56,206 nucleotides of DNA from a virus. The notes beneath the pieces were generated by a model, which ran no database searches, was not told where the DNA came from, and saw only the letters and a program-made list of their open reading frames with translations. Location: the IMG/VR virus record IMGVR_UViG_3300030107_003883, positions 1-56,206 of that record; one strand, written 5' to 3'. The translations under genes were made by a program, and so were the position numbers. Each line of letters starts with the position of its first letter. The stretch's first letter is position 1. Shown here one piece after another: positions 5,517 to 43,975 of the stretch.

Positions 5517-5527
5517 AGGAGAAATAA

Positions 5528-5821: not shown

Positions 5822-5841
5822 ATAAATAAGGGAGAAGAATA

Positions 5842-6216
5842 ATGGCAACTAATTATGGACTGCAAGAGTTTTCTACTCAAGAAGCAGTAAACTTTGAAGC
5901 ATATAAAGATTGGAACACAGAGGTTTTAGACCTAGAGACTGGAGGAGCTTATCTTCCTTCTTCGTTTATAACAGCTGATAATCCAGCAAAAAAGATAGTA
6001 TTGTATATAGAACCTAATAATCAAGGTTTATCTTCGCTGGAAGTGAATGATGTACTTTCATTAAAGTTAAACGGTCAAGATGCAGCTAGTAAGATTATAA
6101 AGATAGATCCTAATGATTTACCTTTTACACTTACTGGTATACAGCTTACTTCTTTTGCTATTAAAAGCGAGAGTGGAGAAGCTAATGATCACATATCTTT
6201 ATTGAGCTTTCACTAA
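5842..6216 (+). CDS. Hypothetical virion protein, 124 aa
   Basis: The ATG at 5842 follows a GGGAGAAG site. The product is soluble and mixed alpha/beta, with no Cys. Its stop overlaps the next start (TAATG), so it is probably produced together with the coiled-coil protein downstream. Its position between connector genes and fibre genes suggests a structural or assembly role. Confidence 0.7.
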   Translation: MATNYGLQEFSTQEAVNFEAYKDWNTEVLDLETGGAYLPSSFITADNPAKKIVLYIEPNNQGLSSLEVNDVLSLKLNGQDAASKIIKIDPNDLPFTLTGIQLTSFAIKSESGEANDHISLLSFH

Positions 6217-7163: not shown

Positions 7164-7575
7164 TGTTATAGGATCAGGAAAAGGAAGATTTCTCACAGAT
7201 GAAACTGGTGATCCTATTGATGGCACCAATAGACTGCCAGTAGAGACTGAGCAGGATGATGCTTTTAGTTCTTGGGTTAGCTATCAAGCTTTTGAAGTAA
7301 GGACAGATAGCTCTGATTTAACCCATGCTGATCATACTGGACAAAGTATTACTAGCGCTAAGGAAATCTTAATACAAACAGATGATGCAAATACTAGCTA
7401 TATTATGGTTGGAAGCGACACTTCTACTACAGTTGCAGATGCTACTAAAACAAATAGAAAAGGGATAAAACTTAATGGAGGCGAAACATTGGTGCTAGCT
7501 ATATCAACATTTGCTAGTATACATTTAGACGCAGAAACTTCCGGACAAATTGTTTATGTCTCATACTTTGCATAA
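7156..7575 (+). CDS. Beta-rich fibre-associated protein, 139 aa
   Basis: The product is Thr/Ser/Asp-rich, consistent with a compact beta-sandwich (residues about 70-139). It overlaps the coiled-coil gene upstream and its stop overlaps the start of the 898-aa fibre, so its expression is probably coupled to fibre assembly. Possible roles are a fibre adaptor or decoration protein. Confidence 0.75.
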   Translation: MANVIGSGKGRFLTDETGDPIDGTNRLPVETEQDDAFSSWVSYQAFEVRTDSSDLTHADHTGQSITSAKEILIQTDDANTSYIMVGSDTSTTVADATKTNRKGIKLNGGETLVLAISTFASIHLDAETSGQIVYVSYFA

Positions 7576-10271
7576 TGCCAAAAACTAGACTCATATCACC
7601 AGGTTCCATACCTAATCATAAGTTGTTAAAGAATTTACAGCTACAGGATAACTATCTTTCCAATGATGGTGGAGATGAAGGTCTTAGAGTAGATGATTCA
7701 GGAAGAGCTTCTTCTAGTAGTCATTTTACAGTTGGAGGTCAGCTTAAAGTTACAAGTGTAAATGTAACAACAACTGATCACAATAAATTTTTAGTTCTTG
7801 ATGGAACTGATGTTAAATATGTTACAGGAGATACATTGGTTCCTGATATTTTAACTGCTGGGACTAATTGTACTTTAAGTGGAGCTACTTTAAATGTAGA
7901 CGATGCTTTCGTTAAAAATAATGCCAATGATGAGATGACTGGCACTTTAACTTTAAATGTCACAGGTACTGCAAAAGCTATTAGTGAAACACTTGTTCTT
8001 ACAAATAATGTAAATGCTTCAGATATGGATGGTACAGGAACTGCTATAAAGTTTAACCAATGGTATTATGATGCTAGTACTCCAGCTATAGAAGAAGCAT
8101 CAAGAATTGTTGTTGCCACAGAAAGTGACTGGACAAGCACTGCAAGTACAAGAGATGCATATATGGCTTTTGAAACAAGTGCCAATGGGTCTTTACAAGA
8201 AAGGATGAGAATTGAAGGAAATAGTGGCTTTGTTGGAATAGGAACAACTAATCCAAGTTCAATGTTTCACGTAGAAAGGCCTGTAGATGCTTCACAATTT
8301 CAACTTGCATACGATAGTACTAACAAAATGAATATTCAAGTTCATGACGATGGTAAAACTACATTTAGAACCTTTGGAGATGGAAGCTATGATTCAGACT
8401 TAACATTAGATATAGATGGAGATATAGAATTAAATGCAGATGGAGGAGATATTGTATTTAAAGATGCTAGTGCTACACTAGCTACTATTAATGGAAGTGG
8501 CCTTACTATAAATAATATAACTCAAGTAGGAAGCGATACTGATGCATTCTTAATGTCTGATAGTGGCGTAGTTAAATATGTTACAGGTGCAAATTTAAGA
8601 TCGTATATAGGTGCAGGTACAGGTGATGGAGATATTACAGGTGTTAGCATTACAACAGATTCAGGAGATGGCAGTAAAGCAGAAGATACATCAGGGTCTG
8701 CAGACTTTTCTATATTAGGTTCTAGTGGAGTAAATGTAACTAATAGTGGCACCACTATAACAGCTGTGGCAGTTCCTGCAGAAATAGACCATGATTCGTT
8801 AAATAATTTTGTTGCTAATGAACATATAGATCACACTTCTGTAACACTAACTGCTGGTGATGGACTTACAGGTGGTGGAGATATATCATCTAATAGAAGT
8901 TTTGCTGTAAGTGTTGATGATTCTACAATAGAAATAAACTCAGATTCGTTAAGAGTAAAAGATGATGGTATTACATATGCTAAAATACAAAATATGACTG
9001 ATGCAAGAATGCTTGGTAATAACGCTGGTTCAGATGGAGTTATTACTGAAATGACACAAGCTAATGTATTATCATTTTTAGGAGTAAGTGCAGGAGCTAA
9101 TGCTAATGTGAGTGGCGATAGTGGAAATGCAGCTATATATGATAATAGTGGTACACCTGCATTTAAATCAGGTATTACAAAAGCAGAAGTACAAAGTTTA
9201 TTAGACTATGTTACTAGCGATGCAGATGATACTATGACTGGTAATTTAACAATTACTAAATCTTCTGGCCCTCAACTTACACTTGGATATGATGCTAATG
9301 AAAAATTTACAATAGACGTAGCAGATAATGGTGTTACTACTATAGCTACAACAGATAATGATGGTAGTGGAACAGCTGCTAATTTAACTTTAGATGTCGA
9401 TGGTGACATAGAGTTAAACGCTGATGGTGGAGATATATCGTTTAAAGATGCAAGTTCTACCCTTGGAACTTTTAGTACTGCTTATGGTGGGTTAAATCTT
9501 CCTGCTAATACAAAAATATCATGGGCACAACAAGATGATTATATCTATGCTGACACAACTGATATATTTATAACTAAAGCTGATACTGATATTGTTACTT
9601 TTAAAGATAACCAAGTATTAAATGACGTGCCATTTAAAATAAAAGAAGCTGGAAGTGCAGTTACACATACAACTGCATATGGACAGCTTTGGGTAAAAAA
9701 TACAGCTCCTAACGAATTGTATTTTGCTAATGATGCTGGTAATGATATACAAATAACTTCAGGAACTGAACTAGTCCCACATTCAGGAACAATACTAGGC
9801 ATTACATGTCTTAGAAGTGATGGAAGTAATTTTGTATCGCACTCTATTCAAGATGCATTTACTGTAGAAGATTCAACTCATCAAATTACATTTAACACAC
9901 CTCCTAGTGAAAATGTTGAAATAGTAGCAAGTGCATATTTTGATACTACTACAACGACAGATGTTACTCTTTATGCAGGATTAAGTGACAATGCTACATA
10001 TAATTCTATAGGTCAAGCTCACGAATATGATCAAGGTGGATTTATTAAATCTGATGACGAGGCTGATGATCATGTAAAAACTATGAGATGGATATTAACT
10101 TCATCTGAACTAGCTTCTGTTGGAAGCTCAAATACTTTTTATATAGGATTTAAAACAAGTGATGACGAGGATATAAAAATAATGTATGGAGAAAGAAATG
10201 CGTTTGGACTTTCTTTACCTCCATTTATAATAAAGGCAATAGCATTGCCATCAACAATTTATACAGGATAG
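7575..10271 (+). CDS. Large tail fibre protein, 898 aa
   Basis: The sequence is a repetitive, Asp/Thr/Gly-rich beta shaft. It shares vocabulary with the fibre at 1717-4326 (FVGIGTTNPSSMFHVE, LDIDGDIELNADGGDI and similar units appear more than once). The C-terminal ~200 residues (from about 700) are non-repetitive and end in a globular beta domain. No S74 SDRR motif is present, so this fibre folds without the self-cleaving chaperone. It is likely a second fibre or a spike partner. The fibre call is firm; the receptor is not known. Confidence 0.85.
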   Translation: MPKTRLISPGSIPNHKLLKNLQLQDNYLSNDGGDEGLRVDDSGRASSSSHFTVGGQLKVTSVNVTTTDHNKFLVLDGTDVKYVTGDTLVPDILTAGTNCTLSGATLNVDDAFVKNNANDEMTGTLTLNVTGTAKAISETLVLTNNVNASDMDGTGTAIKFNQWYYDASTPAIEEASRIVVATESDWTSTASTRDAYMAFETSANGSLQERMRIEGNSGFVGIGTTNPSSMFHVERPVDASQFQLAYDSTNKMNIQVHDDGKTTFRTFGDGSYDSDLTLDIDGDIELNADGGDIVFKDASATLATINGSGLTINNITQVGSDTDAFLMSDSGVVKYVTGANLRSYIGAGTGDGDITGVSITTDSGDGSKAEDTSGSADFSILGSSGVNVTNSGTTITAVAVPAEIDHDSLNNFVANEHIDHTSVTLTAGDGLTGGGDISSNRSFAVSVDDSTIEINSDSLRVKDDGITYAKIQNMTDARMLGNNAGSDGVITEMTQANVLSFLGVSAGANANVSGDSGNAAIYDNSGTPAFKSGITKAEVQSLLDYVTSDADDTMTGNLTITKSSGPQLTLGYDANEKFTIDVADNGVTTIATTDNDGSGTAANLTLDVDGDIELNADGGDISFKDASSTLGTFSTAYGGLNLPANTKISWAQQDDYIYADTTDIFITKADTDIVTFKDNQVLNDVPFKIKEAGSAVTHTTAYGQLWVKNTAPNELYFANDAGNDIQITSGTELVPHSGTILGITCLRSDGSNFVSHSIQDAFTVEDSTHQITFNTPPSENVEIVASAYFDTTTTTDVTLYAGLSDNATYNSIGQAHEYDQGGFIKSDDEADDHVKTMRWILTSSELASVGSSNTFYIGFKTSDDEDIKIMYGERNAFGLSLPPFIIKAIALPSTIYTG

Positions 10272-14610: not shown

Positions 14611-15294
14611 ATGAGTTATACATGGGAAGAAGTAATGCTTGGGATAGATACTCGAGCTGAAGCTAAAAAAGAACAAAAGCAGTTAGATGATATAAACGAA
14701 AAAAGAGATAAAGAGCAATCTGCTATGGGTGCATGGAGTCTTGGATTAAGTTTGTTAGGAGGAGCATTATTTGGCCCTCTTGGTTATACTGCTGGTAAAA
14801 TTTTAGGAAGACAAGGTGCTGATTATTACTACGACTGGGAAAGTATGGATGTTGAAGAAGGAAAGTTTGATGCAGATATTTCTAGAAAAGTAAATAAACA
14901 GCTCTCAAAAGATGCTAAAGATCAAAACAAAGCTCAAGTAGTTCAAGCTGTTACAGATTTAGGTTCAATGTATATACAGGCAGGAGGAATGACAGAAGGT
15001 TTTGATGCAGACTTTACTACATTTGGTGCAGGAGGAGATCAATGGACTATGTTTGGAAGGGGAGGAGAAGCTCCTACGACTTGGGCTTCTAAAGGAGCTG
15101 GAGGAATGATTAATCCTAATACAGGAGAAGCTATAGGAAGTATGGTTCAGCCTGAAGGTGGCATACCTAGTATATTTGATGTATGGAGAGATGATGGACT
15201 TGGATCTATGGGAAATAAACTAAAAGATGTATATACAGCAGATTTAACTGCTAATAAAGCTATGTCAGAGCTTGACAGATTGGCTAATCAATAA
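14611..15294 (+). CDS. Putative ejection/internal virion protein with glycine-zipper helix, 227 aa
   Basis: The ATG at 14611 follows AAGGAATAAG. Residues about 45-70 (LGLSLLGGALFGPLGYTAGK) form a small-residue-rich hydrophobic helix of the kind found in podovirus ejection proteins that insert into the cell envelope. The remainder is helical and acidic. It begins a block of six consecutive genes leading to the giant 3039-aa protein, the usual place for DNA-ejection proteins in short-tailed phages. Role inferred. Confidence 0.7.
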   Translation: MSYTWEEVMLGIDTRAEAKKEQKQLDDINEKRDKEQSAMGAWSLGLSLLGGALFGPLGYTAGKILGRQGADYYYDWESMDVEEGKFDADISRKVNKQLSKDAKDQNKAQVVQAVTDLGSMYIQAGGMTEGFDADFTTFGAGGDQWTMFGRGGEAPTTWASKGAGGMINPNTGEAIGSMVQPEGGIPSIFDVWRDDGLGSMGNKLKDVYTADLTANKAMSELDRLANQ

Positions 15295-16880
15295 TGGCTA
15301 ATTACGGCACATTATGGGAAGCATTTGCTTCAGGTGAAGGCATGGAAGGTTACGATGCTTTGTCTGGAACCGAAACAGATTATAAGCAAAGAACACAAGC
15401 TTTTTATGATCAAATATTAGGGCCTACTTTTTATGGAGATGAAGGTAAGGATATGGGTTCTGGCGATTACAATAAATATATTGCTAGTTTTAGCACAAAA
15501 GAATTGGAAAAAGCAGAAGCTACATTTAGAACTGCAATAGGAGATCCTTATACATCAGTTTCAGACCCTTTTTCTTGGGAAAAGATTAGCAGGTATGATA
15601 CTTCTGGGGGATTAGAAGGAAGGCTTCAATCCCTTTTAGAAAAGGAACTTTATTCAAAAGGAAAACATCTTGGTGGAAAAGTTGGAGAAACTTATGAAAC
15701 AGATACTTCAAAAACTTTACAAGGTTTTAAAGAAGGAGTTCAAGGCCAAAGAGAAAGTATAAGCCATGGGGCTTTAACTAGTGGTCAATCATTAGCTTCT
15801 GGAACTTCTGGAGCCACTATAAGAAGTGGAGGAAATATAGGAGTTGCTGAAGATGCTCTTACAGATATTTATAAAAAAACTAAAACTTTAGGGTCTGAGT
15901 ATAGAGCAGGAAAAGAAAGTGATGAAAGGTCTTTAGAGAGCGATTTAGATGCAGCTTTAACATCATATATATCAGCTATAGATAGTGAAAAAGATAGATG
16001 GTATCAAGCTGTAATACAAGATGTTCAAAAAGTTGGTAAAGATTTTACTCCAGAAGAGATAGAAAATAGATTGGCTGCAAATCAAGAATGGGATTGCGGG
16101 ATTGGAAAAATAGCAAGTGGAACAGATGCAAATGGAAAAACTATATGCGTAGATGATCCCAATTTTACAGCAACAGAAGGAGCGTTTAGGGGTAATGTAT
16201 GCCCTGTAGGACAGTTATGGGATGGTGAACAATGCGTAGAGATGGAAGGCTTAGATTTTACAAGAGATAAATGGGGTCTTATATGCGATGGAGAAGTTGA
16301 TGAGTGCGGTGTATGCGGTGGAGATGGTTCAAGTTGTAAAGATTGCGCTGGAGTTCCAAACGGTAGTGCTGTAGTAGATGATTGTGGTGTTTGTAACGGT
16401 AATAATGCTTGCTTAGAAGATAAAAATGGAACAATTCCAGAAGGTGGAAAAAATATTATAGATACTGAAGGTGAAATGGATGTTAGGGGAACTGAAATAA
16501 ATGATATTGAAACTAATTGGGAAAATATGCTTTCAGATATTTCAAACTATTGGGATAATACTTCTGATATGATGCAAGACATACATGATTCTCTTCCAGT
16601 ATTAGAGAAACCAACTGGCAGTGGTTTTAGAGGAAAAGGTAGTTCTACTTGGACAAATCCTCTTACTCCAGAACAAGGACAGGTTGAAAAAGAAAAAAGA
16701 GATCGTGAAAGAAGAAATAGAAGCCAATACTCTAGATCTGGAAGAAGAACAAGTAGAAATATATATAACTTTTTTAATACTCCTGCCCAAACTCCTGTCC
16801 AAGAAGAACAGGTTTTTCCTGTCCAAGAAGAACAGGAAGAAGAATTTGAAAGACCTTGGTATGAAAAGACAGGTCCATGA
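15294..16880 (+). CDS. Putative internal/ejection protein with Cys-rich CGVCGGDG domain, 528 aa
   Basis: The N-terminal ~250 residues are helical (ejection-protein-like). Residues about 265-380 are Cys-rich and include DECGVCGGDGSSC and DDCGVCNGNNAC, a repeat common in secreted proteins of uncultured marine bacteria and related to Ca-binding thrombospondin-3-like repeats. The C-terminal region is basic (Arg-rich near 445-480) and then carries two PVQEEQ repeats encoded by a 19-bp direct repeat. The next gene (16900-18003) has a similar helical N-terminus plus a Cys-rich tail, so the two are probably paralogues. Extracellular or periplasmic exposure after ejection is suggested by the Cys-rich domain. 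Confidence 0.75.
   Translation: MANYGTLWEAFASGEGMEGYDALSGTETDYKQRTQAFYDQILGPTFYGDEGKDMGSGDYNKYIASFSTKELEKAEATFRTAIGDPYTSVSDPFSWEKISRYDTSGGLEGRLQSLLEKELYSKGKHLGGKVGETYETDTSKTLQGFKEGVQGQRESISHGALTSGQSLASGTSGATIRSGGNIGVAEDALTDIYKKTKTLGSEYRAGKESDERSLESDLDAALTSYISAIDSEKDRWYQAVIQDVQKVGKDFTPEEIENRLAANQEWDCGIGKIASGTDANGKTICVDDPNFTATEGAFRGNVCPVGQLWDGEQCVEMEGLDFTRDKWGLICDGEVDECGVCGGDGSSCKDCAGVPNGSAVVDDCGVCNGNNACLEDKNGTIPEGGKNIIDTEGEMDVRGTEINDIETNWENMLSDISNYWDNTSDMMQDIHDSLPVLEKPTGSGFRGKGSSTWTNPLTPEQGQVEKEKRDRERRNRSQYSRSGRRTSRNIYNFFNTPAQTPVQEEQVFPVQEEQEEEFERPWYEKTGP
16794..16836 (+). repeat. 19-bp direct repeat encoding PVQEEQ twice
   Basis: CCTGTCCAAGAAGAACAGG occurs at 16794-16812 and again at 16818-16836, in the same reading frame of the Cys-rich virion protein. 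Identity at the DNA level suggests a recent slippage duplication. Confidence 0.9.
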
Positions 16881-33317: not shown

Positions 33318-33618
33318 TTTCTTCCTCTATCATACCCCATAAGAGCATTAAATATACTATACAGTCCGTAATTCGACCAGTTACGTCCTCTCTTTGTGAT
33401 TTATGGCCTTTTACATAAGCAGCAATACCATCTACATGCTTAAGTGTATATGTCATAAGTACTTTCTTCTTGTCTATTTCAAGCAAATTTGCCACTCTAT
33501 TAAAGTTAGCAAATACATCTTGATCATCATGAGCATATTCTTTTTGACCTTCATCTCTTATAGATATAACATTTTCTAGTATTGTATCCATAAGTTTATG
33601 CATTTCTTTATGAGTCAT
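33121..33618 (-). CDS. DUF1599-like (nucleotide-modification-associated) protein, 165 aa
   Basis: The ATG at 33618 lies just inside the end of the primase-helicase gene. Residues about 1-100 (VFANFNRVANLLEIDKKKVL, LKHVDGIAAYVKG, ITDCIVYLMLLWG) match the all-helical DUF1599 pattern found in phage proteins associated with nucleotide modification, related to MazG-like folds. The C-terminal ~60 residues are basic and overlap another open frame. The stop is coupled to the next ATG. The DUF1599 match is by eye; an enzymatic activity is not demonstrated. Confidence 0.65.
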   Translation of the reverse strand: MTHKEMHKLMDTILENVISIRDEGQKEYAHDDQDVFANFNRVANLLEIDKKKVLMTYTLKHVDGIAAYVKGHKSQREDVTGRITDCIVYLMLLWGMIEEENGSSSRKEDNKSMRSMWDSISRPEGGLFMDRGRILSPGNKNGSDMCKVRKKRGGVKKPKKVGANK

Positions 33619-35353
33619 CTCTAATAATCCTTACGTTATCTAGTTTAAGTCTTACTTGCAAGTGTTCTCTTTCTCTATTAGCATCAGATCTTAGATCTAA
33701 GTACTCTAGTTCTCCAGTCGTCATAGAACGTCTAGGAACAAGAGAAAGTAACTTATTCAAGTTGTACGCTACTCTAAATGAGCCTTTAGTAGAATGTAAA
33801 CCCATACCTTCAGTCATTGCAGTCTTATTTATTTCACTTACCGCAAATACTATGATATTATGCTTAACAGCTAGCTCCATCATTGCCTGTGATGCCTCTT
33901 CTACGCGCATATTAGGGTCTTTAAGGTTACTTTGAAACAAACCCATGTGATCTATCACAACAACTCTAGGCTTAACAGGAAGAGTCAATATAGTCTTTTC
34001 TAAATCTCTTGCAGATATAGGTGAATAATTCACTTGTAACCATTGAAACTTCTTATCTTGACCATTGTTATGATTTGCATAATGATCTCTTAACTGTTCT
34101 TCAGTCCAGCCATTTTCTATTTGTACAAATCTAGACCATATTTGTCTTGGAGACATCTCCATTTCTAAGAAATATGTTGGCACTTTAAATGCACACATCC
34201 AGTTTTGCAATAACATAGTCTTCATAGACTTAGGTGGTGCTTGTAAAACAACAACTTCACCTGGATATATAGGATAGTCACCTCCATATAACTGCCCTAA
34301 ATTTAAGGGAGTTACATCAGATTTGTAAAATTCTATAAGGTTAGTTTCCATGTCTGAAGCATCCATCATAGTCTGGCTTTTCTTATTTCTATACAGTCTA
34401 CATGTATTCTTGCAATATTCGTCCATAATAGGGTCACTACAGCCATATTTATTGCCTTGACCACCATGACCTTCATATGCACTAGTAACGATGCTATCCA
34501 TCTCTTTTTCAGAGAAAGGTTTATCATTGCCACTTACCTGTACTCTCCATACTTCCATAAGCATTCTTACTGTTTCTTCAGGATAAAGCCAACGAAACCA
34601 AGCACTTAGCCTTAATGCTACCATATGTCTTTTACCCATAGGTATAGACTGTATCATACTGCTAATACAAGGATACAAAGAAGGATCAGGAGATCTTCCT
34701 TGTGATAATTGTATGCTTTGAGTCTGTTTCTTTTCCTCTTCGCTTATAATTACATTAAATACAGGTTGTCCCTCCATAACTATATCACTCATAGGTTGAG
34801 GTTTCTTTGCATACTCTATAATAGCATTAACATCTCCTTCCAACATACCTTTTTGTAGCTCAACTTTATATGAGCCTGATTTATTATTTTTGGTATTTGG
34901 AACTCTTATTAATCTAAGCTTGTCTGTTACTGATGGATCAGCATATTCAAATATACCATGCTTTGTAAGTACAGTTTTTATCTTTGTATGCAGGTTCTTA
35001 TGTGGTCTATATGTAAATGAAGTACTAGGTATGTGAAAGTGGAATCCTGTTCCGCTAAAGAATGCTTTATATGGCACATCTAAGTCTTCAAGCATTAATT
35101 TTAGGCCAATAGCTTTCTTTTGTGCGTCATCAGGATTACCACCATCAACATCTAATATAAACTCTTCAGGTATATATATTTTACCATCATAACCAGACAA
35201 TTTCTTGTTTTCAGCAAAGTAGTCCTTAACATCATTATCGTATTCATATAATGACATAAAGGTGTCACTATGAAGATCCATCCAATTTACTATATTAGAT
35301 GAATCTTCAAAGTAATGTCTTCTTGATAAGCCGAACGCAAATTCTCTAATCAT
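33608..35353 (-). CDS. Primase-helicase (archaeo-eukaryotic primase + Cys cluster + RecA-like helicase), 581 aa
   Basis: Three modules are visible. Residues 60-160 are an archaeo-eukaryotic primase (AEP): LDVDGG (D68, D70), SGTGFHFHI (100-108), and LRLIRVPNTKNNKSG. Residues 229-318 contain four spaced Cys (C229, C305, C314, C318) in the arrangement of a PriL-like Fe-S or zinc module. Residues 345-581 are a DnaB/RecA-type ATPase with Walker B VVVIDH (464-469). The Walker A is atypical: APPKSMKT (372-379) keeps Lys-Thr but lacks the usual glycines. The protein would prime and unwind DNA at the fork. No replicative DNA polymerase is seen in the genome, so it probably works with the host polymerase. 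Confidence 0.85.
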   Translation of the reverse strand: MIREFAFGLSRRHYFEDSSNIVNWMDLHSDTFMSLYEYDNDVKDYFAENKKLSGYDGKIYIPEEFILDVDGGNPDDAQKKAIGLKLMLEDLDVPYKAFFSGTGFHFHIPSTSFTYRPHKNLHTKIKTVLTKHGIFEYADPSVTDKLRLIRVPNTKNNKSGSYKVELQKGMLEGDVNAIIEYAKKPQPMSDIVMEGQPVFNVIISEEEKKQTQSIQLSQGRSPDPSLYPCISSMIQSIPMGKRHMVALRLSAWFRWLYPEETVRMLMEVWRVQVSGNDKPFSEKEMDSIVTSAYEGHGGQGNKYGCSDPIMDEYCKNTCRLYRNKKSQTMMDASDMETNLIEFYKSDVTPLNLGQLYGGDYPIYPGEVVVLQAPPKSMKTMLLQNWMCAFKVPTYFLEMEMSPRQIWSRFVQIENGWTEEQLRDHYANHNNGQDKKFQWLQVNYSPISARDLEKTILTLPVKPRVVVIDHMGLFQSNLKDPNMRVEEASQAMMELAVKHNIIVFAVSEINKTAMTEGMGLHSTKGSFRVAYNLNKLLSLVPRRSMTTGELEYLDLRSDANREREHLQVRLKLDNVRIIRDDS

Positions 35354-35484
35354 TTGTTGTTACCTACCTCTCCTCTGGCTATTACTGTAGTTTTACATCT
35401 TTTACAGGTTTTTTGATGATTATGCATTCCCCAGAGTTTACCGCATTTACATCTTATGTGTTTTTCAAGCTCTTTATCCACCAT
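35350..35484 (-). CDS. Tiny zinc-ribbon protein, 44 aa
   Basis: Minus strand, ATG at 35484, TGA overlapping the ATG of the primase-helicase gene. Two Cys pairs (RCKCGK and TCKRCKT) with a central GMHNH segment form a likely zinc ribbon. Coupling to the primase-helicase suggests a replication accessory factor, for example a small nucleic-acid-binding protein. Confidence 0.65.
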   Translation of the reverse strand: MVDKELEKHIRCKCGKLWGMHNHQKTCKRCKTTVIARGEVGNNK

Positions 35485-35674
35485 CTTCTATCTCCTTATC
35501 ATTTATAAAAGTATTAGTTTCAAGCACAAGTCTTAATGCTTCACACCATCCTCTATTTTTCATAAAGTCAAAGTATAACAATCCTTCATCTCCGCTCATA
35601 TTCATTTTTACATAATCTTCATCTACTCTTTCACAATGTTTTAAGACCCTCTTTATTTGTAATGGGCTTAACAT
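35474..35674 (-). CDS. Small hypothetical protein, 66 aa
   Basis: The ATG at 35674 overlaps the end of the upstream gene, and its 3' end overlaps the tiny zinc-ribbon gene. The product is helical and acidic (MNMSGDEGLLYFDFMKNRGW in the centre). No family is recognised. Overlaps on both sides support expression within the replication operon. Confidence 0.7.
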   Translation of the reverse strand: MLSPLQIKRVLKHCERVDEDYVKMNMSGDEGLLYFDFMKNRGWCEALRLVLETNTFINDKEIEDGG

Positions 35675-36069
35675 ATGAAATCCACCAATGCTTTAACTAG
35701 CTCAGGAACTGCAATCTTCGGTAAATAAATAGGATTATGCTTGTCATCGCCAGTAACAGCAATACCATTAGCAGTAGAAGTAATTGTAAAGCATTTCCTG
35801 GGGTCTTTAGTAGCATTATCAATAGGCCATAAACTTTCTGCTTTAGGCCTTTCTTTGGGTTCTGGTACATCTGGGGTAGGTATCTCTTTTGCATGGTTTA
35901 GTCCTAACTCTTCTAATATTTTATCAGTTGCTTGCCTCATTCTAACTTTATTAGCTATAATGCCATCATTGCACATATGTAATAAGTCTTTTTGAAACAA
36001 TTTATACTTTCCGTTAACCACTTTCCAATGCAAATTATCTTTACCACACCCTCTATTACATGTTATCAT
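35668..36069 (-). CDS. Cys/His-containing hypothetical protein, 133 aa
   Basis: The ATG at 36069 has GGAGAG upstream. The N-terminus (ITCNRGCGKDNLHWK ... LLHMC) has three Cys and nearby His that could bind zinc. The middle is a Pro/Glu-rich linker and the C-terminus is beta-rich followed by a helix. It lies between the SSB-like gene and primase-helicase, so a replication-associated nucleic-acid-binding role is plausible. Confidence 0.7.
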   Translation of the reverse strand: MITCNRGCGKDNLHWKVVNGKYKLFQKDLLHMCNDGIIANKVRMRQATDKILEELGLNHAKEIPTPDVPEPKERPKAESLWPIDNATKDPRKCFTITSTANGIAVTGDDKHNPIYLPKIAVPELVKALVDFIC

Positions 36070-36104
36070 ATTCTCTCCGATGTTAGTAAGTTAATTCATA
36101 TAAA

Positions 36105-36142
36105 GCATTAAGGGGCCCCCGTTCAAAGACCCCTTATAATGC
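36105..36142. repeat. Inverted repeat in the gap after the SSB gene
   Basis: GCATTAAGGGG (36105-36115) pairs with CCCCTTATAATGC (36130-36142), with a two-base bulge. The gap 36070-36170 holds no gene. It may be a terminator-like or RNA-processing hairpin in the leftward transcript. Confidence 0.65.
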
Positions 36143-36170
36143 AAACTCCTATAACCGCCTTCTCAACCAT

Positions 36171-36692
36171 TTAGAAGATAGGAGCCTCTACTTGTTCTGT
36201 TGTGCCATTAGCAGGAGCAGGTGTAGATCCGTCTTTTACATAATCTGTATAATACTTCTCTGCACGCCCTTTCCAATAGTCAACATCATTTTCAGTAAAT
36301 TGCTCAATAATGTTCTTAAACTCAGTTGGTGCACATTGCTTTAAAGCACGTGTGTATTCACCATCTTTATGAAAGTATACATTAAGCTCTTTCCCTGTTA
36401 AATGACTAGTATCATCATCAATCTTAACAACCACATTTCCATCTGGTCCGTCAAGTCCATCAGTAATACCAGCGTTAGCAAATCTAAAGACTTGTCCTAT
36501 TGCGAACTCTTCTCCATTGCTGCCTTTCTTTTCATAGACTCTCATGGTAAAGTTCTCAGGATAGTCGTTAAACCACACATCTAAGAATTTAGTGCCATTA
36601 TAGTCACCGTACTTCGCTTTTGAAACAGTAAGTGTATGCCAACCAGTTGTATAGTTAGTACCACCACCTTTTTTTACTGTGAGTGTTCTCAT
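36171..36692 (-). CDS. Single-stranded DNA-binding protein-like, 173 aa
   Basis: The start overlaps the stop of the Sak4-like gene (ATGA), with GGAG upstream. Residues about 10-110 are beta-rich with aromatic positions typical of an OB fold (GWHTLTVSKAKYGDYNG, LDVWFNDYPENFTMRVYE). The C-terminus is Glu-containing and ends APIF, resembling the partner-binding tip of bacterial SSBs (…DIPF). Recombinase-SSB adjacency is standard in phages. The call rests on pattern and context; no full family match was made. Confidence 0.7.
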   Translation of the reverse strand: MRTLTVKKGGGTNYTTGWHTLTVSKAKYGDYNGTKFLDVWFNDYPENFTMRVYEKKGSNGEEFAIGQVFRFANAGITDGLDGPDGNVVVKIDDDTSHLTGKELNVYFHKDGEYTRALKQCAPTEFKNIIEQFTENDVDYWKGRAEKYYTDYVKDGSTPAPANGTTEQVEAPIF

Positions 36693-37438
36693 TTAGTTTC
36701 TCCATTTACTAGTGTTTGCAAACTATAGGTCTTACCTGAACCTGGTGAACCTATTATTAGTACTTTAGCTCCATCAAAGCCCTTGTCACGAGCTGCTGAT
36801 ATAACTTTACCATAATCTTGGTCCATTTCAGCTTCTAATAAGCCTGTTCTATCCTTAGCATGATCATATTTTTCACTACGTGCAGTAACCCATAGATACT
36901 TTCTATTAGTTCCAGATACTACAGTTTTAGTATAAAATACAAAATCAAACCACTTGCTGATATCGTCTTTACTACTGCCATCTATATAAGGTATAACCTT
37001 ATTTCCATCATCCATTGTTTGAATTTTAGAATGACAGTTGCATATTACTATACCAGGGATTTTACTTACGAATGATAGAGCTCCATCAAGTTTATTCTTT
37101 AATTGACCCCATCCTTGTAACTTCATTTTACCATCTTTGTCAGATAGTTCTCTCATATACTTCTTAGATAACTCTGAGAATGTATCCAGAACTAAAGCAT
37201 CAATCTTGGTATCAGTTTGTGCTGTAACAACTGAGCGTTGTTCATCTATTTCTAGATCACCAATATTAACTTTAACAGTTTTGGTCTCTTCCTTATACAG
37301 CTTACCTATAGTATTTTGAAATTGACTAAAGGTACCAGGCTGCATGACTGGAAAGCCAAACTGCTTGTGAATATATTCTTTTGATCCGAGAGTTTGAGAA
37401 CCATGTTCTAGATCGAACATTAGTGTTTTCATGCGCAT
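36689..37438 (-). CDS. Sak4-like RecA-type ATPase with C-terminal P-loop (circular permutant), 249 aa
   Basis: A start at 37438 is chosen because AAGGAG lies just upstream; the longer frame to 37471 lacks one. The elements of a Sak4/RecA-like phage recombinase are all present but rotated. The protein opens with KTLMFDLEHG (residues 4-13), which normally follows the P-loop helix. Walker B is ALVLDTFSEL (81-90), later strands include VICNCHSK and YLWVTARSEKY, and the Walker A motif GSPGSGKT is at 230-237, only 12 residues from the end. Joining the C- and N-termini restores the normal order. It would promote single-strand annealing or recombination with the SSB encoded next to it. ATPase family is well supported; the permutation is read directly from the sequence. 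Confidence 0.85.
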   Translation of the reverse strand: MRMKTLMFDLEHGSQTLGSKEYIHKQFGFPVMQPGTFSQFQNTIGKLYKEETKTVKVNIGDLEIDEQRSVVTAQTDTKIDALVLDTFSELSKKYMRELSDKDGKMKLQGWGQLKNKLDGALSFVSKIPGIVICNCHSKIQTMDDGNKVIPYIDGSSKDDISKWFDFVFYTKTVVSGTNRKYLWVTARSEKYDHAKDRTGLLEAEMDQDYGKVISAARDKGFDGAKVLIIGSPGSGKTYSLQTLVNGETK

Positions 37439-37455
37439 TTCTCTCCTTTTGTTGC

Positions 37456-37471
37456 GTGGTAAATATACCAC
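37456..37471. promoter_or_regulatory. Hairpin/palindrome upstream of the Sak4-like gene
   Basis: GTGGTA and TACCAC form a 6-bp stem around a 4-base loop, directly before the ribosome binding site (AAGGAG) of the ATPase gene. It could be an operator or an RNA hairpin that controls translation. Confidence 0.45.
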
Positions 37472-37822: not shown

Positions 37823-38476
37823 TCATATCTTTCTTAGCATCATAGTAGGAAAATGAAAGCTAAAGTTACTATTAAACGGTTCATCGGTTATGAACTTGCG
37901 AACGGAATTAGCAATAAAGCTTCCACTCATATTTGAGCAGTAACTTGTTGCTTTAGCGTTGCAAGGCTCCTCATCCCCTTGTTCATCAGAGTACCAATGT
38001 TTTTTATATTCAGCAAGTGTTGGCTTTTTGAATATATATTGTTGATAGTGTTCAGCTCCCATTCTCCCGTCTATGATGCATTTTGGCTTAGTCGTAGGGT
38101 TAGAGCATATTGTAGTGACCGCTTCCAACCTTGACCCCATCGAATCAAACCCTAGTATGACTATGTCATTATGATCCTGGAAATAGAATGTATCAAAGTC
38201 ACCATGATGAGTATCTATTACAAGTTCTCGACTTATATTTAATAAATGGCTCTTCAAAGCATTAACTTTGTTACTGCCAATATCTCCTTGAGTATACTGA
38301 GATACTCCGATATTAACATCTTCTACTATATCACGATCATATAGATGAAAATATAGTCCACCCATACGTGCCAATTGAGTGGCTGCGGCACTCCCGATAG
38401 CACCGCAACCTAGTATATGAAATGTGTAGTCATATACCCCTGTGAATAATCCTTCATTTCTTGCTGTTAAGCTCAT
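37823..38476 (-). CDS. E1/ThiF-like ubiquitin-like-protein activating enzyme, 217 aa
   Basis: The start at 38476 overlaps the JAB gene stop (ATGA), and the first residues (MSLTARNEGLF) match usual E1-like starts. The Rossmann nucleotide site is ILGCGAIGS (G23, G25, G28), followed by the acidic YDRD pair (D47, D49), N55, K70, and the GFDSMGSR loop (D111). In this family these bind ATP and adenylate the C-terminal Gly of a ubiquitin-like or sulphur-carrier protein. Two Cys near the end (C172 and C180 in PCNAKATSYC) are candidates for thioester formation or metal binding. It is the last gene of a cassette with a ubiquitin-like protein, an E2-like protein and a JAB peptidase. The family is firm; the substrate is inferred from context. 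Confidence 0.9.
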   Translation of the reverse strand: MSLTARNEGLFTGVYDYTFHILGCGAIGSAAATQLARMGGLYFHLYDRDIVEDVNIGVSQYTQGDIGSNKVNALKSHLLNISRELVIDTHHGDFDTFYFQDHNDIVILGFDSMGSRLEAVTTICSNPTTKPKCIIDGRMGAEHYQQYIFKKPTLAEYKKHWYSDEQGDEEPCNAKATSYCSNMSGSFIANSVRKFITDEPFNSNFSFHFPTMMLRKI

Positions 38477-39384
38477 ACTCCATACCCCCATCCTATACCA
38501 GCTTGATCTAATGTGTCGCCTGTTTGCTTATTTACAACAAAGTCTGATGGCATAGCATGTAATAAAGATTCAAGAGCATTTTCTACTACAAGAGTTACTT
38601 CATATATACTTTTACTATCTACAAGCTCTTTATTTAAATCATCTATTGACATTTTATAAGCTGCATAAGTCATTGATCCTGCTACTACTTCAGATATAAC
38701 CTCGTCAACTTCTTCAAGGATTTCGAAATATGTCTTTGGCTTACCAGACAAGCCTGTCTGACCAGCTGTGGTATGAAAAGGGAGTCGCTCTTGGCGAGGG
38801 TCCTCCGCAGCTTCTTTAAGCAGATCAGTATGATTTCCATTATTCTTTCTCCATGAATAACCTGTATATGTAGGAACTTTATATTCAGGCTTAGTACACA
38901 TTGCTGCTACATTCTCTTTAATCTTTTTGCTTATACGTGCTTTAGGATTAATTATAGTTAGATCAACATCTTCATGTACTTCTACAGGCTTCCATACAGA
39001 TACTCTAAACTTATATTCTTCCTTAAGGTTAACAACTAAGGCAAATGAGAAATCTCCTTGATCATATTCTTTTATAGCTGTTAAATCTGTGCCAGACCAG
39101 AATGCGTTCATTGTATGATGACTATGCCACCAACAAAATCTAAAGTTCTTTTTACCCAATCTTTTAGCCTCTTTAGTATAATATATAGCTAGCTCATCTT
39201 TATCAAGTACAGTATTCCCAGCGCTTATAACTTGCTTAAGTATTACAGGGTTTTCTAAATGCCAATCACCATCTTTATCTTCTACCATTACAGACATTCC
39301 ACCTATTTCAGATTGATGCTCTGTATGGGCTTCTTCTGCGTATCCCAGGATAGTATCCCAGTCTTTCTGTTTTATGTAAAACAT
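38473..39384 (-). CDS. JAB/JAMM metallopeptidase (deubiquitinase-like), 303 aa
   Basis: AAAGGAG lies 7-8 bases before the ATG. All JAMM residues are present: catalytic Glu26 (SEIGG), then HSH (H87, H89), Ser97 and Asp100 in the exact H-x-H-x7-S-x2-D spacing. Such enzymes use zinc to cleave isopeptide or peptide bonds after the C-terminal Gly of ubiquitin-like proteins. The C-terminal half (residues about 150-303) is helical and not part of the core fold, and may bind partners. The stop overlaps the E1-like start. Likely jobs are trimming the terminal Gln of the ubiquitin-like protein at 41646-41852 and removing it from targets. No NlpC/P60 domain is present, unlike lambda-type tail JAB proteins. 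Confidence 0.9.
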   Translation of the reverse strand: MFYIKQKDWDTILGYAEEAHTEHQSEIGGMSVMVEDKDGDWHLENPVILKQVISAGNTVLDKDELAIYYTKEAKRLGKKNFRFCWWHSHHTMNAFWSGTDLTAIKEYDQGDFSFALVVNLKEEYKFRVSVWKPVEVHEDVDLTIINPKARISKKIKENVAAMCTKPEYKVPTYTGYSWRKNNGNHTDLLKEAAEDPRQERLPFHTTAGQTGLSGKPKTYFEILEEVDEVISEVVAGSMTYAAYKMSIDDLNKELVDSKSIYEVTLVVENALESLLHAMPSDFVVNKQTGDTLDQAGIGWGYGV

Positions 39385-39412
39385 ATGTGTCTCCTTTTAT
39401 TTTATAATTTTA

Positions 39413-39471
39413 TGAGGGAAGCTATACTGCTTACGTTTCTCGGTGTCCACAGCTCCAATTAACTTCCCTCA
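39413..39471. repeat. Long-range inverted repeat upstream of the JAB gene
   Basis: TGAGGGAAG (39413-39421) is the exact reverse complement of CTTCCCTCA (39463-39471), 41 bases apart. It lies in the 150-base gap before the JAB gene and probably forms an RNA stem in the leftward transcript. Confidence 0.75.
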
Positions 39472-39481
39472 ACCATTTAGG

Positions 39482-39527
39482 CTAATCTAACCTTGGAGAG
39501 GAAATTCCGACGTTTTCTCTAGATTAG
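39482..39527. repeat. Second inverted repeat upstream of the JAB gene
   Basis: CTAATCTA (39482-39489) pairs with TAGATTAG (39520-39527). Inside it GAGA and TCTC can extend the structure. A 13-base element (CTCAACCATTTAG) just before it at 39468-39480 also occurs at 36162-36174. Confidence 0.7.
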
Positions 39528-39535
39528 ACCCAAAT

Positions 39536-41536
39536 CTATAAGTTATTTGCACTACCATTTCTAATAGCCCATTGAATAGTTCTTTCTTCTATTGTCATTT
39601 CTGCTTCAGGTGTTGTTGTTTGAACAGGTGTACGAGGAACAGATGTCGCAAAAGGATCATCATCTATTAAAGTATCCAAAGGGTCAAATGGAGTTCGATC
39701 TAATATATCATTAGCTTCTTGCTCTATTTGATTTATTTGATCTTGAGTTAGCTCAGGATTATCAGGTACAGGTGGAAGTTCAACGTTATAACCTATTACA
39801 TTCTCTCTATTCCATTCAAAATCACTTGTAAGATCTAAGTATACATTTTCATAGAAATGTTCAAAGTTAACAATAGGCATATTGCAAAGATTTCTTAGCT
39901 TTCTTCTATAAGTAGGTGTATCTTCTAATTCACCACCTGGCTCTCTACCTTCTTTAGCAAGCCATCTTATAATAACCCTATGCATTCTGATATAGTTATT
40001 ATATGAATCAAATATTCGCTCTCTAGTACGTGGAGTTGTCCATAAGCTATCTTCAATAGAATCTATATAGACATCATTCTCAGTAGACAGTATATTATCT
40101 TTAATAGAAAGTTCTAGCATTATACCAAGAATACCTTCTTCTTCAGGTGTCTTATCATCCTTTAATGTAAGAGATATGTTATTATACTGCTCACAATTAG
40201 TGTTAAAAGTACACTTTGCACATGGAAGATTAGCATCAGTTATATGATTATAATATTCTAATTTTCTATTTAAATATTCTTCAGCACCTATAGTATAACT
40301 ATTAGTATTGCTTATACGATAGCTATGATAAAATACATTTCTAGCATGATCATGTGCTTCATCAAATAACTTGCGACTTAAGTTACAACTTAACAATGTA
40401 TTATAAGTATAATTGCCATTTCCTTCAAAGAATGTTCTATATACAATATCATTATCACCTGATTCTGTTAAGAATGTATCAAATACTATGTTTCTGCCAT
40501 GAGACTTACTATAACTTATCCTATTTAAAGGATTAGTTTGAGGTACATAATAGTTTGTAGCCCATCCTACAAGAGTAGTTATATGTGCTAATATATCTAC
40601 ATTCATAATAGAAGCCCTTATTGCATTTTTCATACTGCCAAGACATACATTACCAGATTTTACATCATCACCAGCATAGTATCTATATTTATCATCACCT
40701 TGACTTATATATGGATGTCTATTTAGTCCAAAAGAATCTAAATATAAAGCTTCTAAGAAATGAGTTGCATTACTAGGAGGTGCAGCTTGCAAGAACTCTT
40801 CTCTTCCCCAATGTCTACTTATCAATGGTAATAAGAATACTCCTGATGCAATATATACGTCACCTATAGTATGGTTAAATCTTTTAGTTTCATTTCCTAT
40901 TATTATATGAGTACGCATATTTGCATTCTTTATTTTTACCATAAATAATACAATATAATCCCTTGTTTCAGATACATCACTAGGACCTATAAAATGAGCA
41001 TTGCCTCCATAGCTATATTGTCTTCTTAACATAGCTTTATTAGCACAAGTTTCCATTACTCTACATTGTATTTCTACATGAGGATACATCTCTTTAGCTA
41101 CCTCTAACTGACTGATAATACTAGACTTAACCTTGTCAAACTCTTCTTCAAATTGATCTGTATTATCCTGCCATTTGATGCCGTTAGACTTTAAGTCCTT
41201 TAGTTTATATTCAAGGCTTAACAAGCTTGATTTAAAACCAGACTCTCTCCATCTATAGTCTTGTATTCTTTTAAAGATAGACTCTACACCTCTTGGCTTC
41301 ATATCGTGCCTTAATACATGTTCGTTATAGGCTCTTTTTATTTCATTATAACCACCAGGTTTTAGAGTAAAGCTTTTAGATACACCTAAATTACAGTTAT
41401 ATCTTTCTTTTAATGTTTCTAAAGCCTCAATAATTTCTCCTTGAGGTCCTACAAGTATATTATCAATCAACTCAGACACATTACATTCAAATGTTTCTAT
41501 GTCCACAGAGTTTGCTTCTATCATTTTAAAATTCAT
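39536..41536 (-). CDS. Large E2-like (ubiquitin-conjugating-like) protein, 666 aa
   Basis: The ATG at 41536 has GGAG six bases upstream; an upstream in-frame TTG (41548) lacks this. Residues about 1-170 are helical. At 274-340 the sequence reads RHPYIS ... SGNVCLGS ... ITTLVGWATNYYVPQTNPLN. This is the E2 active-site pattern HPNIY ... G-x-(I/V)-C-L ... PxNPLN, with candidate catalytic Cys298. Bacterial E2-like proteins of the PRTRC-B/Prok-E2 type show the same short motif. The C-terminal half contains a C-x2-C-x5-C cluster (LPCAKCTFNTNC) that may bind zinc, followed by an acidic Pro-rich tail. It would accept the ubiquitin-like protein from the E1-like enzyme and pass it to a target. It is much longer than ordinary E2s (about 150 aa), so it may include target recognition. 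The E2 call is by motif and operon context. Confidence 0.7.
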   Translation of the reverse strand: MNFKMIEANSVDIETFECNVSELIDNILVGPQGEIIEALETLKERYNCNLGVSKSFTLKPGGYNEIKRAYNEHVLRHDMKPRGVESIFKRIQDYRWRESGFKSSLLSLEYKLKDLKSNGIKWQDNTDQFEEEFDKVKSSIISQLEVAKEMYPHVEIQCRVMETCANKAMLRRQYSYGGNAHFIGPSDVSETRDYIVLFMVKIKNANMRTHIIIGNETKRFNHTIGDVYIASGVFLLPLISRHWGREEFLQAAPPSNATHFLEALYLDSFGLNRHPYISQGDDKYRYYAGDDVKSGNVCLGSMKNAIRASIMNVDILAHITTLVGWATNYYVPQTNPLNRISYSKSHGRNIVFDTFLTESGDNDIVYRTFFEGNGNYTYNTLLSCNLSRKLFDEAHDHARNVFYHSYRISNTNSYTIGAEEYLNRKLEYYNHITDANLPCAKCTFNTNCEQYNNISLTLKDDKTPEEEGILGIMLELSIKDNILSTENDVYIDSIEDSLWTTPRTRERIFDSYNNYIRMHRVIIRWLAKEGREPGGELEDTPTYRRKLRNLCNMPIVNFEHFYENVYLDLTSDFEWNRENVIGYNVELPPVPDNPELTQDQINQIEQEANDILDRTPFDPLDTLIDDDPFATSVPRTPVQTTTPEAEMTIEERTIQWAIRNGSANNL

Positions 41537-41554
41537 TGTTGTCTCCAAGTTATA

Positions 41555-41630
41555 ATGGGGTAAAATATTACAATTCAGTTAGGCTTGCATAAAAGGAGCT
41601 TTATCCCGAGCATTGACCACCTTACCCCAT
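41555..41630. repeat. Long-range inverted repeat between the E2-like and Ubl genes
   Basis: ATGGGGTAA (41555-41563) pairs exactly with TTACCCCAT (41622-41630) across 58 bases. It occupies the gap between the ubiquitin-like gene and the E2-like gene and may adjust their relative expression or RNA stability. Confidence 0.75.
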
Positions 41631-41645
41631 AATTGTTATAATATC

Positions 41646-41852
41646 TTACTGACCACCAGTCTTATTACTATTTACATTAGCAACAATGTCCCCATCTTGC
41701 AATTGATAGTCATCTGACTGATCTGTTGCATTTACAGCTACACTTGACCCAGCAGGCATATCAAGTTCAGTTCTTAATGAGCCTATAGTTTGACTAGTTA
41801 CTACTTTTTCAACGAATCCACCGCCACTAAGTACTTTTATTGTTATTGACAT
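41646..41852 (-). CDS. Ubiquitin-like beta-grasp protein ending in Gly-Gly-Gln, 68 aa
   Basis: GGAGG in the end of the preceding gene serves as ribosome binding site, and the ATG directly follows that gene's stop. The sequence has the ThiS/MoaD/ubiquitin pattern: strand ITIKVLSGGG, helix start TIGSLRTEL, strand SSVAVNAT, then the signature LQDGDIVANV and the C-terminal tail KTGGQ (G66-G67-Q68). In this superfamily the di-Gly is adenylated by an E1. The extra terminal Gln would have to be removed first, a likely job for the JAB peptidase in the same operon. Gene order (Ubl, E2-like, JAB, E1-like) supports a conjugation tag rather than a sulphur carrier for cofactor synthesis. Confidence 0.85.
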   Translation of the reverse strand: MSITIKVLSGGGFVEKVVTSQTIGSLRTELDMPAGSSVAVNATDQSDDYQLQDGDIVANVNSNKTGGQ

Positions 41853-42035
41853 TTAAGCCTCCTTATTGATTGTTTCTTTATTACGAAGCGCTTTCCATGC
41901 ACTCTTAGGCATATATTTCGCTTCCTGTTTATTTACTACCTTCTCAGCGTCTTCATCACGTACCCGCAGCAATGTACCTACAGGTAATCGCTTCCAATAC
42001 TGTGAATTTTCTACTACAGTTTTAATTGTTTTCAT
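41853..42035 (-). CDS. Small basic protein directly upstream of the Ubl, 60 aa
   Basis: The product is Lys-rich (YWKRLPVGTLLRVRDEDAEK, then AKYMPKSAWKALRNK) with a predicted small beta-helix fold; proteins with a similar RDEDA(E)KVV...Y.PKS.W pattern are common short phage proteins of unknown role. The stop abuts the Ubl start, so both are made from one message. It may be a partner, adaptor or substrate of the conjugation cassette, or an unrelated neighbour. Confidence 0.7.
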   Translation of the reverse strand: MKTIKTVVENSQYWKRLPVGTLLRVRDEDAEKVVNKQEAKYMPKSAWKALRNKETINKEA

Positions 42036-42105: not shown

Positions 42106-42594
42106 CTACTCTTCATCCACACTAGGATAAGTACATTCTTTTGTCCAGGTATTGGGATCGCCTAGTCCATCTCCATCAAGATCAAGGTACCACATTGTTG
42201 GTCCCTCGCCATTACAGACCCCACATTCATCTCGCCAGTTTTCATAGCAAGTATCATCTTTATCATCAGAGTTTGTGACCCATCTTCCTCTTTCGAGTGG
42301 TTGACTTACATGGAGATCAGTGGTATATTCGTCACCATTCCACCAAAATGTATGTCCCTCACCCTTAGCACGATGTTGTATTCTGAACGCTTCAACAAAT
42401 GGCATATCATCCAAGTTTATCTGTACAGGATCAACGTGCGTATATTTAAACATAGAGTGATCAATTACAGGCTCTTCTTCCATTTGTTTAGCCTTATTTA
42501 ACACTCTGTTAGTTATATTACTGTTATCTTTTGCTTCAACATCACTACATCCCACAAATATCATCATTACTATCATTAATAGATTGCTTCTCAT
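42106..42594 (-). CDS. Phage lipoprotein with CGVCNG/DxDGDG motif, 162 aa
   Basis: The N-terminus is a lipoprotein signal peptide: a short basic start, a hydrophobic stretch, and the lipobox FVGC, so the mature protein should begin at Cys15 and be anchored to a membrane. Near the C-terminus is DECGVCNGEG followed by YLDLDGDGLGDP, a Ca-binding-like repeat seen in secreted proteins of marine bacteria and related to the Cys-rich repeat in the virion gene at 15294-16880. An early-expressed phage lipoprotein is often used for superinfection exclusion or receptor masking; that role is inferred. AGGAG-type sequence precedes the ATG. Confidence 0.8.
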   Translation of the reverse strand: MRSNLLMIVMMIFVGCSDVEAKDNSNITNRVLNKAKQMEEEPVIDHSMFKYTHVDPVQINLDDMPFVEAFRIQHRAKGEGHTFWWNGDEYTTDLHVSQPLERGRWVTNSDDKDDTCYENWRDECGVCNGEGPTMWYLDLDGDGLGDPNTWTKECTYPSVDEE

Positions 42595-43497: not shown

Positions 43498-43902
43498 TGA
43501 TACCTCCATATTTATTGTTAGTGTGAATTTAATAAGAGAGTCGTCAATATCCTTACTTCATTGTGCTTTTATTGTCACCTAGGGCTTACACCTAGCTATC
43601 CATGACGGTAATACACAAATGGCTTGACCCTTCCATTACTCTCTTAAATTATACATAGTAGAGGTGAAGTAGGGTTCATCATCATACAAGGCTCCGTTCC
43701 CTTTCGCTTGCCAGCTAATCGTTCACTACCAAGTATTTTTACCTCTTACAGGGGTTAACCTGATTCCGTACCCAAAAGAGGACTATGTAATTCAATTATA
43801 GACTATACGTACACGACTGGTGCTTTTCAACCCAGTCCACCACATTCCTACCACTAACCATCTTAACGATGTTCCCTCTGTATAATCTAATGTTAATTGT
43901 TG
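43498..43902 (-). other. Gene-free region downstream of the tRNA, with inverted repeats
   Basis: About 400 bases with no credible gene. They contain the inverted repeat TAAGAGAGT/ACTCTCTTA (43533-43541 with 43638-43646), a direct repeat CACCTAG (twice near 43576-43597), and one copy of the nonamer CACAAATGG (43614) that also occurs twice in the gap at 37.7 kb. A small stem CCTCTT/AAGAGG lies near 43742-43782. It could be an untranslated leader or a structured RNA. Confidence 0.45.
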
Positions 43903-43975
43903 AGGCGGTGACAGGAGTCGAACCTGCTATCTCTTGGTTATGAGCCAAGCGTGTAAACCATTTCACTCCACCGCT
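43903..43975 (-). tRNA. tRNA with CAT anticodon (Met or Ile2)
   Basis: A full cloverleaf is visible on the minus strand. The acceptor stem is AGCGGTG/CACCGCC with an A1-C72 mismatch, the D stem is GTG/CAC, and the anticodon stem CTTGG/CCAAG surrounds loop CTCATAA. The T arm is GCAGG-TTCGACT-CCTGT. CCA is not encoded. The anticodon stem lacks the three G-C pairs of initiator tRNA, so an elongator Met or lysidine-modified Ile tRNA is more likely. It lies in an otherwise gene-free part of the leftward arm. Confidence 0.85.

Follow-up and report, generated by a model that had tools for sequence, protein, structure and literature searches.

The four-gene cassette

We analyzed IMG/VR phage record IMGVR_UViG_3300030107_003883, 56.2 kb in length (positions 1 to 56,206, here called the window), which carries four consecutive minus-strand genes (37823-41852) for a ubiquitin-like protein (Ubl), an E2-like protein, a JAB peptidase and an E1 enzyme. 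This cassette likely constitutes a complete phage-encoded pathway for Ubl conjugation and deconjugation. The Ubl is a 68-residue beta-grasp protein (41646..41852), followed by the E2-like protein of 666 residues (39536..41536), a JAB/JAMM peptidase of 303 residues (38473..39384) and an E1/ThiF-type activating enzyme of 217 residues with a single adenylation domain (37823..38476); all cassette features given below lie on the same strand. An earlier note on this DNA had described four consecutive leftward genes of these types, and all are present as claimed. The ATGA overlap it reported for the JAB and E1 genes is real (38476-38473), the JAB stop overlapping the E1 start, which is most likely at 38476. 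Its interval (37823-42035) contains the four genes but also takes in a fifth, 60-residue open reading frame (ORF; 41853-42035, minus strand) directly upstream of the Ubl, which matched no Pfam family at E <= 1 and is no recognised part of the pathway.

Activating enzyme, peptidase and Ubl

The activating enzyme is the most readily classified of the four proteins. Pfam ThiF (PF00899) matched it at E 2e-16 with 60 bits against a cut-off of 28, and the best PDB match of its profile was UBA5 (E 3e-15). The ATP-binding residues are intact, with Arg6, the GxGxxG motif and the Asp/Asp/Asn/Lys/Asp/Arg set conserved in 82-84 of 84 homologues, in agreement with the ThiF/E1-type Rossmann enzyme proposed earlier. 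A candidate thioester cysteine, Cys172 (EEPCNAKATSYC, 37961..37963), is kept in 83 of the 84; the homologue without it in the alignment, from a Xanthomonas phage, has a cysteine one column away, probably due to an alignment shift.

The peptidase has the exact JAMM motif H87-S-H89-x7-S97-x2-D100 (39085..39126) that had been read from the sequence, and this motif is invariant together with Glu26: E26, H87, H89, S97 and D100 are found in 70/70 relatives, and in 77/77 to 78/78 when distant phages are included. The JAB profile search suggested in the earlier note gave a Prok-JAB match at E 7e-5, which at 23.2 bits narrowly missed the cut-off of 25. In profile searches of the PDB, the peptidase matched 6fjv, an N11-like protein of the 26S proteasome (E 1e-6), and also CSN5.

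The Ubl ends in K64-T-G66-G67-Q68, with the Gly-Gly codons at 41652-41657. Its AlphaFold2 (AF2) model (pLDDT 84) has the element order E-E-H-E-E-E, and Foldseek against the PDB placed MTH1743 first (E 4e-4), followed by MoaD, ThiS, ubiquitin, NEDD8, SUMO and SAMP1 (E 2e-3 to 2e-2), while Pfam ThiS matched below its cut-off (E 0.006). These results agree with the beta-grasp protein ending in GGQ described earlier. Only K64, G66 and G67 (K-x-GG) are invariant among 36 relatives, and the tail past the two glycines ranges from 0 to about 57 residues. Such variable tails imply maturation by JAB, with the Ubl made as a pro-form that the peptidase would process at the C-terminus.

The E2-like protein

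The E2-like protein is much larger than a bare E2 and comprises a helical N-terminal part, an E2-like core (residues ~126-345) and a Cys-rich C-terminal part. The core contains HPYIS at residues 274-278 (40703..40717), the counterpart of HPN in E2 enzymes and kept as [HFY]PYI in the majority of 39 relatives, followed by Cys298 in SGNVCLG (40643..40645), the predicted thioester cysteine. Among 42 relatives with a mean column identity of 16%, no residues other than Pro275 and Cys298 are invariant. The consensus of the core is [HFY]PYI...[VIL]C[LTFM][GDS], with cysteine contexts such as VCLG, VCLD, LCLS and VCFG. Downstream of the cysteine are a Trp and then T-N-P-L-N, which recalls the PNPDDPLN segment of E2 enzymes. 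In the AF2 model (pLDDT 70, pTM 0.66), a helix (126-150) precedes four strands (154-164, 192-213, 216-234 and 259-267), HPYIS, Cys298 and two helices (300-311 and 315-327), the same succession as in an E2. Four cysteines (C384, C439, C442 and C448; 40193..40387) form a cluster kept in 36-40 of the 42 relatives and possibly represent a metal-binding, specificity or E3-like part.

A single-protein search with the E2-like protein found no relatives in viral contigs or in INPHARED because the family diverges too fast; relatives were reached via JAB and E1 instead. Foldseek against BFVD returned seven A0A516 entries, which we take as the same family.

Distribution, synteny and evolution

Relatives were gathered by JAB and E1 searches of IMG/VR, 80 being kept of 404 E1 matches. 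Of 49 phage loci in which both the Ubl and the E2-like gene are present, 48 have the gene order Ubl, E2-like, JAB, E1; the set includes a few overlapping stretches of one contig. Once near-identical E1s were removed, 34 loci remained that carry the primase in addition to the four genes. With order and catalytic residues kept across dozens of divergent relatives, the cassette is more than a chance arrangement.

Downstream of the cassette in the window are replication genes (33608..37471, minus strand) encoding a Sak4-like annealing protein (36689), a single-stranded DNA-binding protein (SSB)-like product (36171) and a primase/DnaB-like helicase (33608). The primase-helicase and Sak4 were identified by PHROGs matches, and the SSB-like label comes from position and appearance only. 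These replication genes stay next to the cassette in relatives, with the primase downstream wherever the contigs reach that far. A second scan was anchored on the primase, which avoids selection on the cassette. In 22 loci the upstream sequence extended for 8.5 kb or more, and 21 of these had all four cassette genes; some of the loci are close relatives of each other. The E1 profile matched 404 IMG/VR contigs, whereas a search of 84,980 cellular genomes gave only four contigs, all from metagenome-assembled genomes (MAGs). Taken together, the primase-anchored scan and these counts indicate a viral distribution of the module and a nearly core status in its clade. The earlier note considered a whole pathway inside a phage replication operon unusual; the cassette is not the oddity of a single phage, being near-core in a clade of uncultured phages, where it is located beside recombination-SSB-primase genes. 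A chromosomal origin of the cassette was considered and rejected, the only cellular matches being the four MAG contigs, among them one with a crAss-type module and two with Planctomycetes operons (see below).

Pairwise dN/dS values, which are rough and uncorrected for saturation, were 0.03-0.19 for E1, mostly 0.05-0.4 for Ubl (one low-divergence value was near 1), 0.10-0.42 for JAB and 0.11-0.76 for the E2-like protein. E1 is under strong purifying selection and the E2-like protein is the fastest evolving of the cassette, which fits a part tracking changing partners. Pairwise distances of the E2-like protein and the primase are correlated (0.77), which fits inheritance alongside the replication genes.

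Related modules in other phages and in MAGs

E1 homologues 27-33% identical to that of the cassette occur in Crassvirales phages, Fpv-type Flavobacterium phages and others. Modules of the crAss-like kind were seen in crAss001 (gp76-gp79), Kolpuevirus, Dulem virus 41 and Fpv1, where they are annotated as thiamine biosynthesis, metalloprotease or hypothetical proteins. A JAB with the exact JAMM motif adjoins E1 in the crAss-like and Fpv-type records examined, and upstream of the pair are candidate E2-like (HSH...CxG) and beta-grasp-like Ubl ORFs. Alignment of the E2-like protein and Ubl with these ORFs by hhalign was not significant, and they remain candidates only. The modules are mostly primase-adjacent as well, with a primase gene beside them in crAss001, Kolpuevirus, bajarodcaudo and Dulem virus 41 and none annotated in the stretch around the module of Fpv1. 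They differ from the cassette in belonging to another phage lineage and in a Ubl candidate that extends C-terminally past K-S-G. In Fpv1 (L013, 4668-6960; loci of relatives carry L numbers), the JAB gene seems to be interrupted immediately ahead of the JAMM motif by about 1 kb with an opposite-strand ORF (5184-5933), a possible intron or insertion. A Xanthomonas jumbo phage has E1, one ORF containing HPHM...GSLCLG and another whose product ends in SGG, with no JAB seen nearby.

Among the cellular-genome matches, L099 is probably a phage, with a module of crAss type (Ubl, E2-like, JAB, E1); the L099 and L098 contigs are filed under Spirochaetia MAGs. L100 and L101 are operons of Planctomycetes MAGs with the same order of Ubl, E2(+Zn), JAB and E1. 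Their E1 is 27-28% identical, the L101 Ubl ends in HGG-IG, and the candidate E2 has HPHV...LCEG, in register with the E2-like protein but weakly aligned (hhalign P 0.005). Pfam found no E2 in the L101 candidate. These operons differ from the cassette in residing on cellular MAG contigs and in having a Cys-rich C-terminal part of another type.

Comparison with known systems

The gene order of BilABCD, A-B-C-D, is the same as that of the phage cassette, which shares all four activities with it (Ubl, E2, JAB deubiquitinase and E1). BilA has two beta-grasp domains and is matured by the JAB deubiquitinase prior to conjugation, BilB has a CEHH motif, and BilD combines inactive and active adenylation domains with an insertion of about 80 residues (PMC11354881). 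The phage Ubl is a single domain, also in its AF2 model, the phage E1 has one adenylation domain and not two, the 666-residue E2-like protein has HPYIS...CLG, and the cassette is phage-borne and replication-linked. PRTRC (ParB-related, ThiF-related cassette) likewise ties ThiF and JAB to DNA-maintenance genes, and its Ubl and E2-like genes are also linked. However, PRTRC_ThiF scored 27 bits against a cut-off of 145 and PRTRC_A 14 against 102, and no adjacent ParB gene was noted in the window. The earlier note had named BilABCD and PRTRC as analogues; by these domain counts and scores the cassette is a member of neither.

The adenylation domain of the phage E1 matches PADLOC models of E1-E2 fusions, as in CBASS Cap2. 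In the phage, E1 and E2 are separate genes, a Ubl is present and no nucleotidyltransferase was seen. A phage Ubl is linked to a JAB peptidase also in the lambda tail-assembly proteins I/K (PMC1779556), which lack E1 and E2 and belong to a tail module. Overall, the cassette would work like the known bacterial Ubl-E2-JAB-E1 operons (PMC1779556, PMC11354881), yet it is neither BilABCD, nor PRTRC, nor an E1-E2 fusion.

No description of a whole phage cassette was found in the open-licence PMC literature, so that priority is not certain. Ubiquitin, ThiF and JAB all go unmentioned in Yutin 2021.

Proposed pathway and alternative explanations

Catalytic-residue conservation, synteny and the predicted beta-grasp fold of Ubl support well the reading of the cassette as a pathway, and they favor the suggestion in the earlier note that the phage has its own Ubl tag together with its remover. 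We infer the following reaction steps, thioester chemistry and targets. Ubl would at first carry a short C-terminal extension (Gln68 here), which JAB would trim past Gly67. A probably homodimeric, UBA5/MoeB-like E1 would adenylate Gly67 using ATP, may then take Ubl on Cys172, and would hand it over to Cys298 of the E2-like protein. The helical N-terminal part, four-Cys cluster and variable tail of the latter could serve as a built-in substrate-selecting (E3-like) element, and JAB would also take the tag off. As targets, components of the phage replication/recombination complex, or host proteins taken over at that site, are the most likely; we favor replication and recombination proteins because of the position of the cassette and its near-core status.

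Two sets of results weigh against this pathway. First, one relative (L127) lacks the cassette and has no ThiF match anywhere in its 53.5-kb record, so the cassette is not strictly essential. Second, the E2-like protein belongs to no family in Pfam, NCBIfam, PADLOC or PHROGs; six-frame searches of phage records with Prok-E2_B, Prok-E2_D and UQ_con gave no match, including to the E2-like protein for the Prok-E2 families whose search had been suggested earlier; profile searches of PDB sequences with the full-length protein or its core found no E2; and neither did Foldseek against the PDB with the full-length model, itself of modest quality. The best Foldseek rows there, virion chains of crAss001 and P22 (E ~0.5, probability below 0.1), were discarded as noise. 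The HP...GNVCLG motif noted earlier is present, with Pro and Cys conserved in 42/42 and a fitting topology, but no E2 profile or fold matches it. We grade the E2 identity as probable, on motif, predicted topology and context, because neither Foldseek on the full-length model nor the profile searches yield an E2.

One possible, if unlikely, alternative is counter-defence, in which the phage Ubl pathway tags host defence or takeover targets and so disables them, or JAB strips Bil-type tags of the host off virions and the rest is a decoy. Bacterial operons of the BilABCD type are tied to anti-phage defence (PMC11354881), and an arms race predicts that a part such as the E2-like protein would evolve fastest. 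Against this, the cassette is nearly core across a divergent clade and has its fixed place next to genes for the single-strand annealing protein, SSB and primase rather than in a variable accessory island, E2-like and primase distances are correlated, and PADLOC gives partial E1 and JAB similarity only.

Rather doubtful is the possibility that the E2-like protein is something other than an E2, with another role for its cysteine and a module made up of Ubl, JAB and E1 plus an unrelated scaffold. The failed profile and fold searches speak for it, while HPYIS...VCLG with the downstream helix and NPLN, the predicted order of helix, four strands, HP, Cys and helices, and the HPHV...LCEG candidate in the same-order Planctomycetes operon speak for an E2. 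It is very unlikely that E1 thiocarboxylates Ubl as a sulfur carrier for modification of tRNA, nucleotides or a cofactor: E1 and Ubl do resemble ThiF/MoeB and ThiS/MoaD, but an E2-like protein with the invariant HP...C core is present wherever coverage permits, no sulfurtransferase was noted in the cassette, and the JAB profile is similar to isopeptidases. It seems just as improbable that Ubl is attached to a nucleotide, DNA or lipid instead of a protein, or that it self-assembles, with nothing positive in favor of this beyond a new, large E2-like family with a Cys cluster adjoining genes that handle single-stranded DNA, and the precedents of ATG8, which is attached to lipid, and Cap2, which activates a non-Ubl protein (PMC12355090).

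If the cassette is a conjugation pathway, phages regulate infection through ubiquitin-like tagging. Bacterial ubiquitin-like operons are mainly discussed as host defence in the literature cited here; the pathway described here belongs to viruses, occurs in nearly all sampled phages of one clade, is almost absent from the cellular genomes by the search used and is tied to replication genes. More tentatively, two lineages, the uncultured clade and crAss-like gut phages, might each have a near-core, self-encoded ubiquitin system that tags replication proteins via a new E2 family with built-in substrate recognition. This would represent viral post-translational control of replication by such a system. 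The culturable hosts of crAss001 and Flavobacterium phages make these ideas directly testable.

Additional observations

The right side of the window has terminase, portal and major head genes. A tRNA-Met gene is located at 43902-43975 (minus strand). At 42106-42594, a small protein whose signal resembles that of lipoproteins (VGCS) contains a DECGVCNG / DxDGDG motif which is also found in a protein at 15294-16880, among the right-hand virion genes.

In L127, other genes lie upstream of SSB and primase (4705-9410), one DUF932-like and one ERF-like by eye. An ERF-like protein, again judged by eye, takes the place of Sak4 in L004 (7573-8049) and L127 (8934-9410); the annealing protein next to the cassette can thus be exchanged. 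In L009, a ParB-like gene identified by eye (1219-2019) lies about 0.8 kb upstream of Ubl and recalls PRTRC.

An RNA-like intergenic element was seen in 19 copies (L063:3410-3500, L082:3445-3530, L061, L066, L087, L151, L171 and others), frequently between the Ubl and E2-like genes. It matched no Rfam family at the gathering threshold. The sequence CAATAACTGGTCC(TGTAAGTCC)...GGCAAAGGAATATGTGAG is conserved within it, while its closing stem varies (GAGAGC/GCTCTC, GGGGA/TCCCC), several positions having changed on both sides. In the window, the Ubl/E2-like gap (41549-41645) has a 13-bp closing stem with stability not above that of shuffles (z -0.9), and the E2-like/JAB gap (39385-39535) folds better than shuffles (z -3.1).

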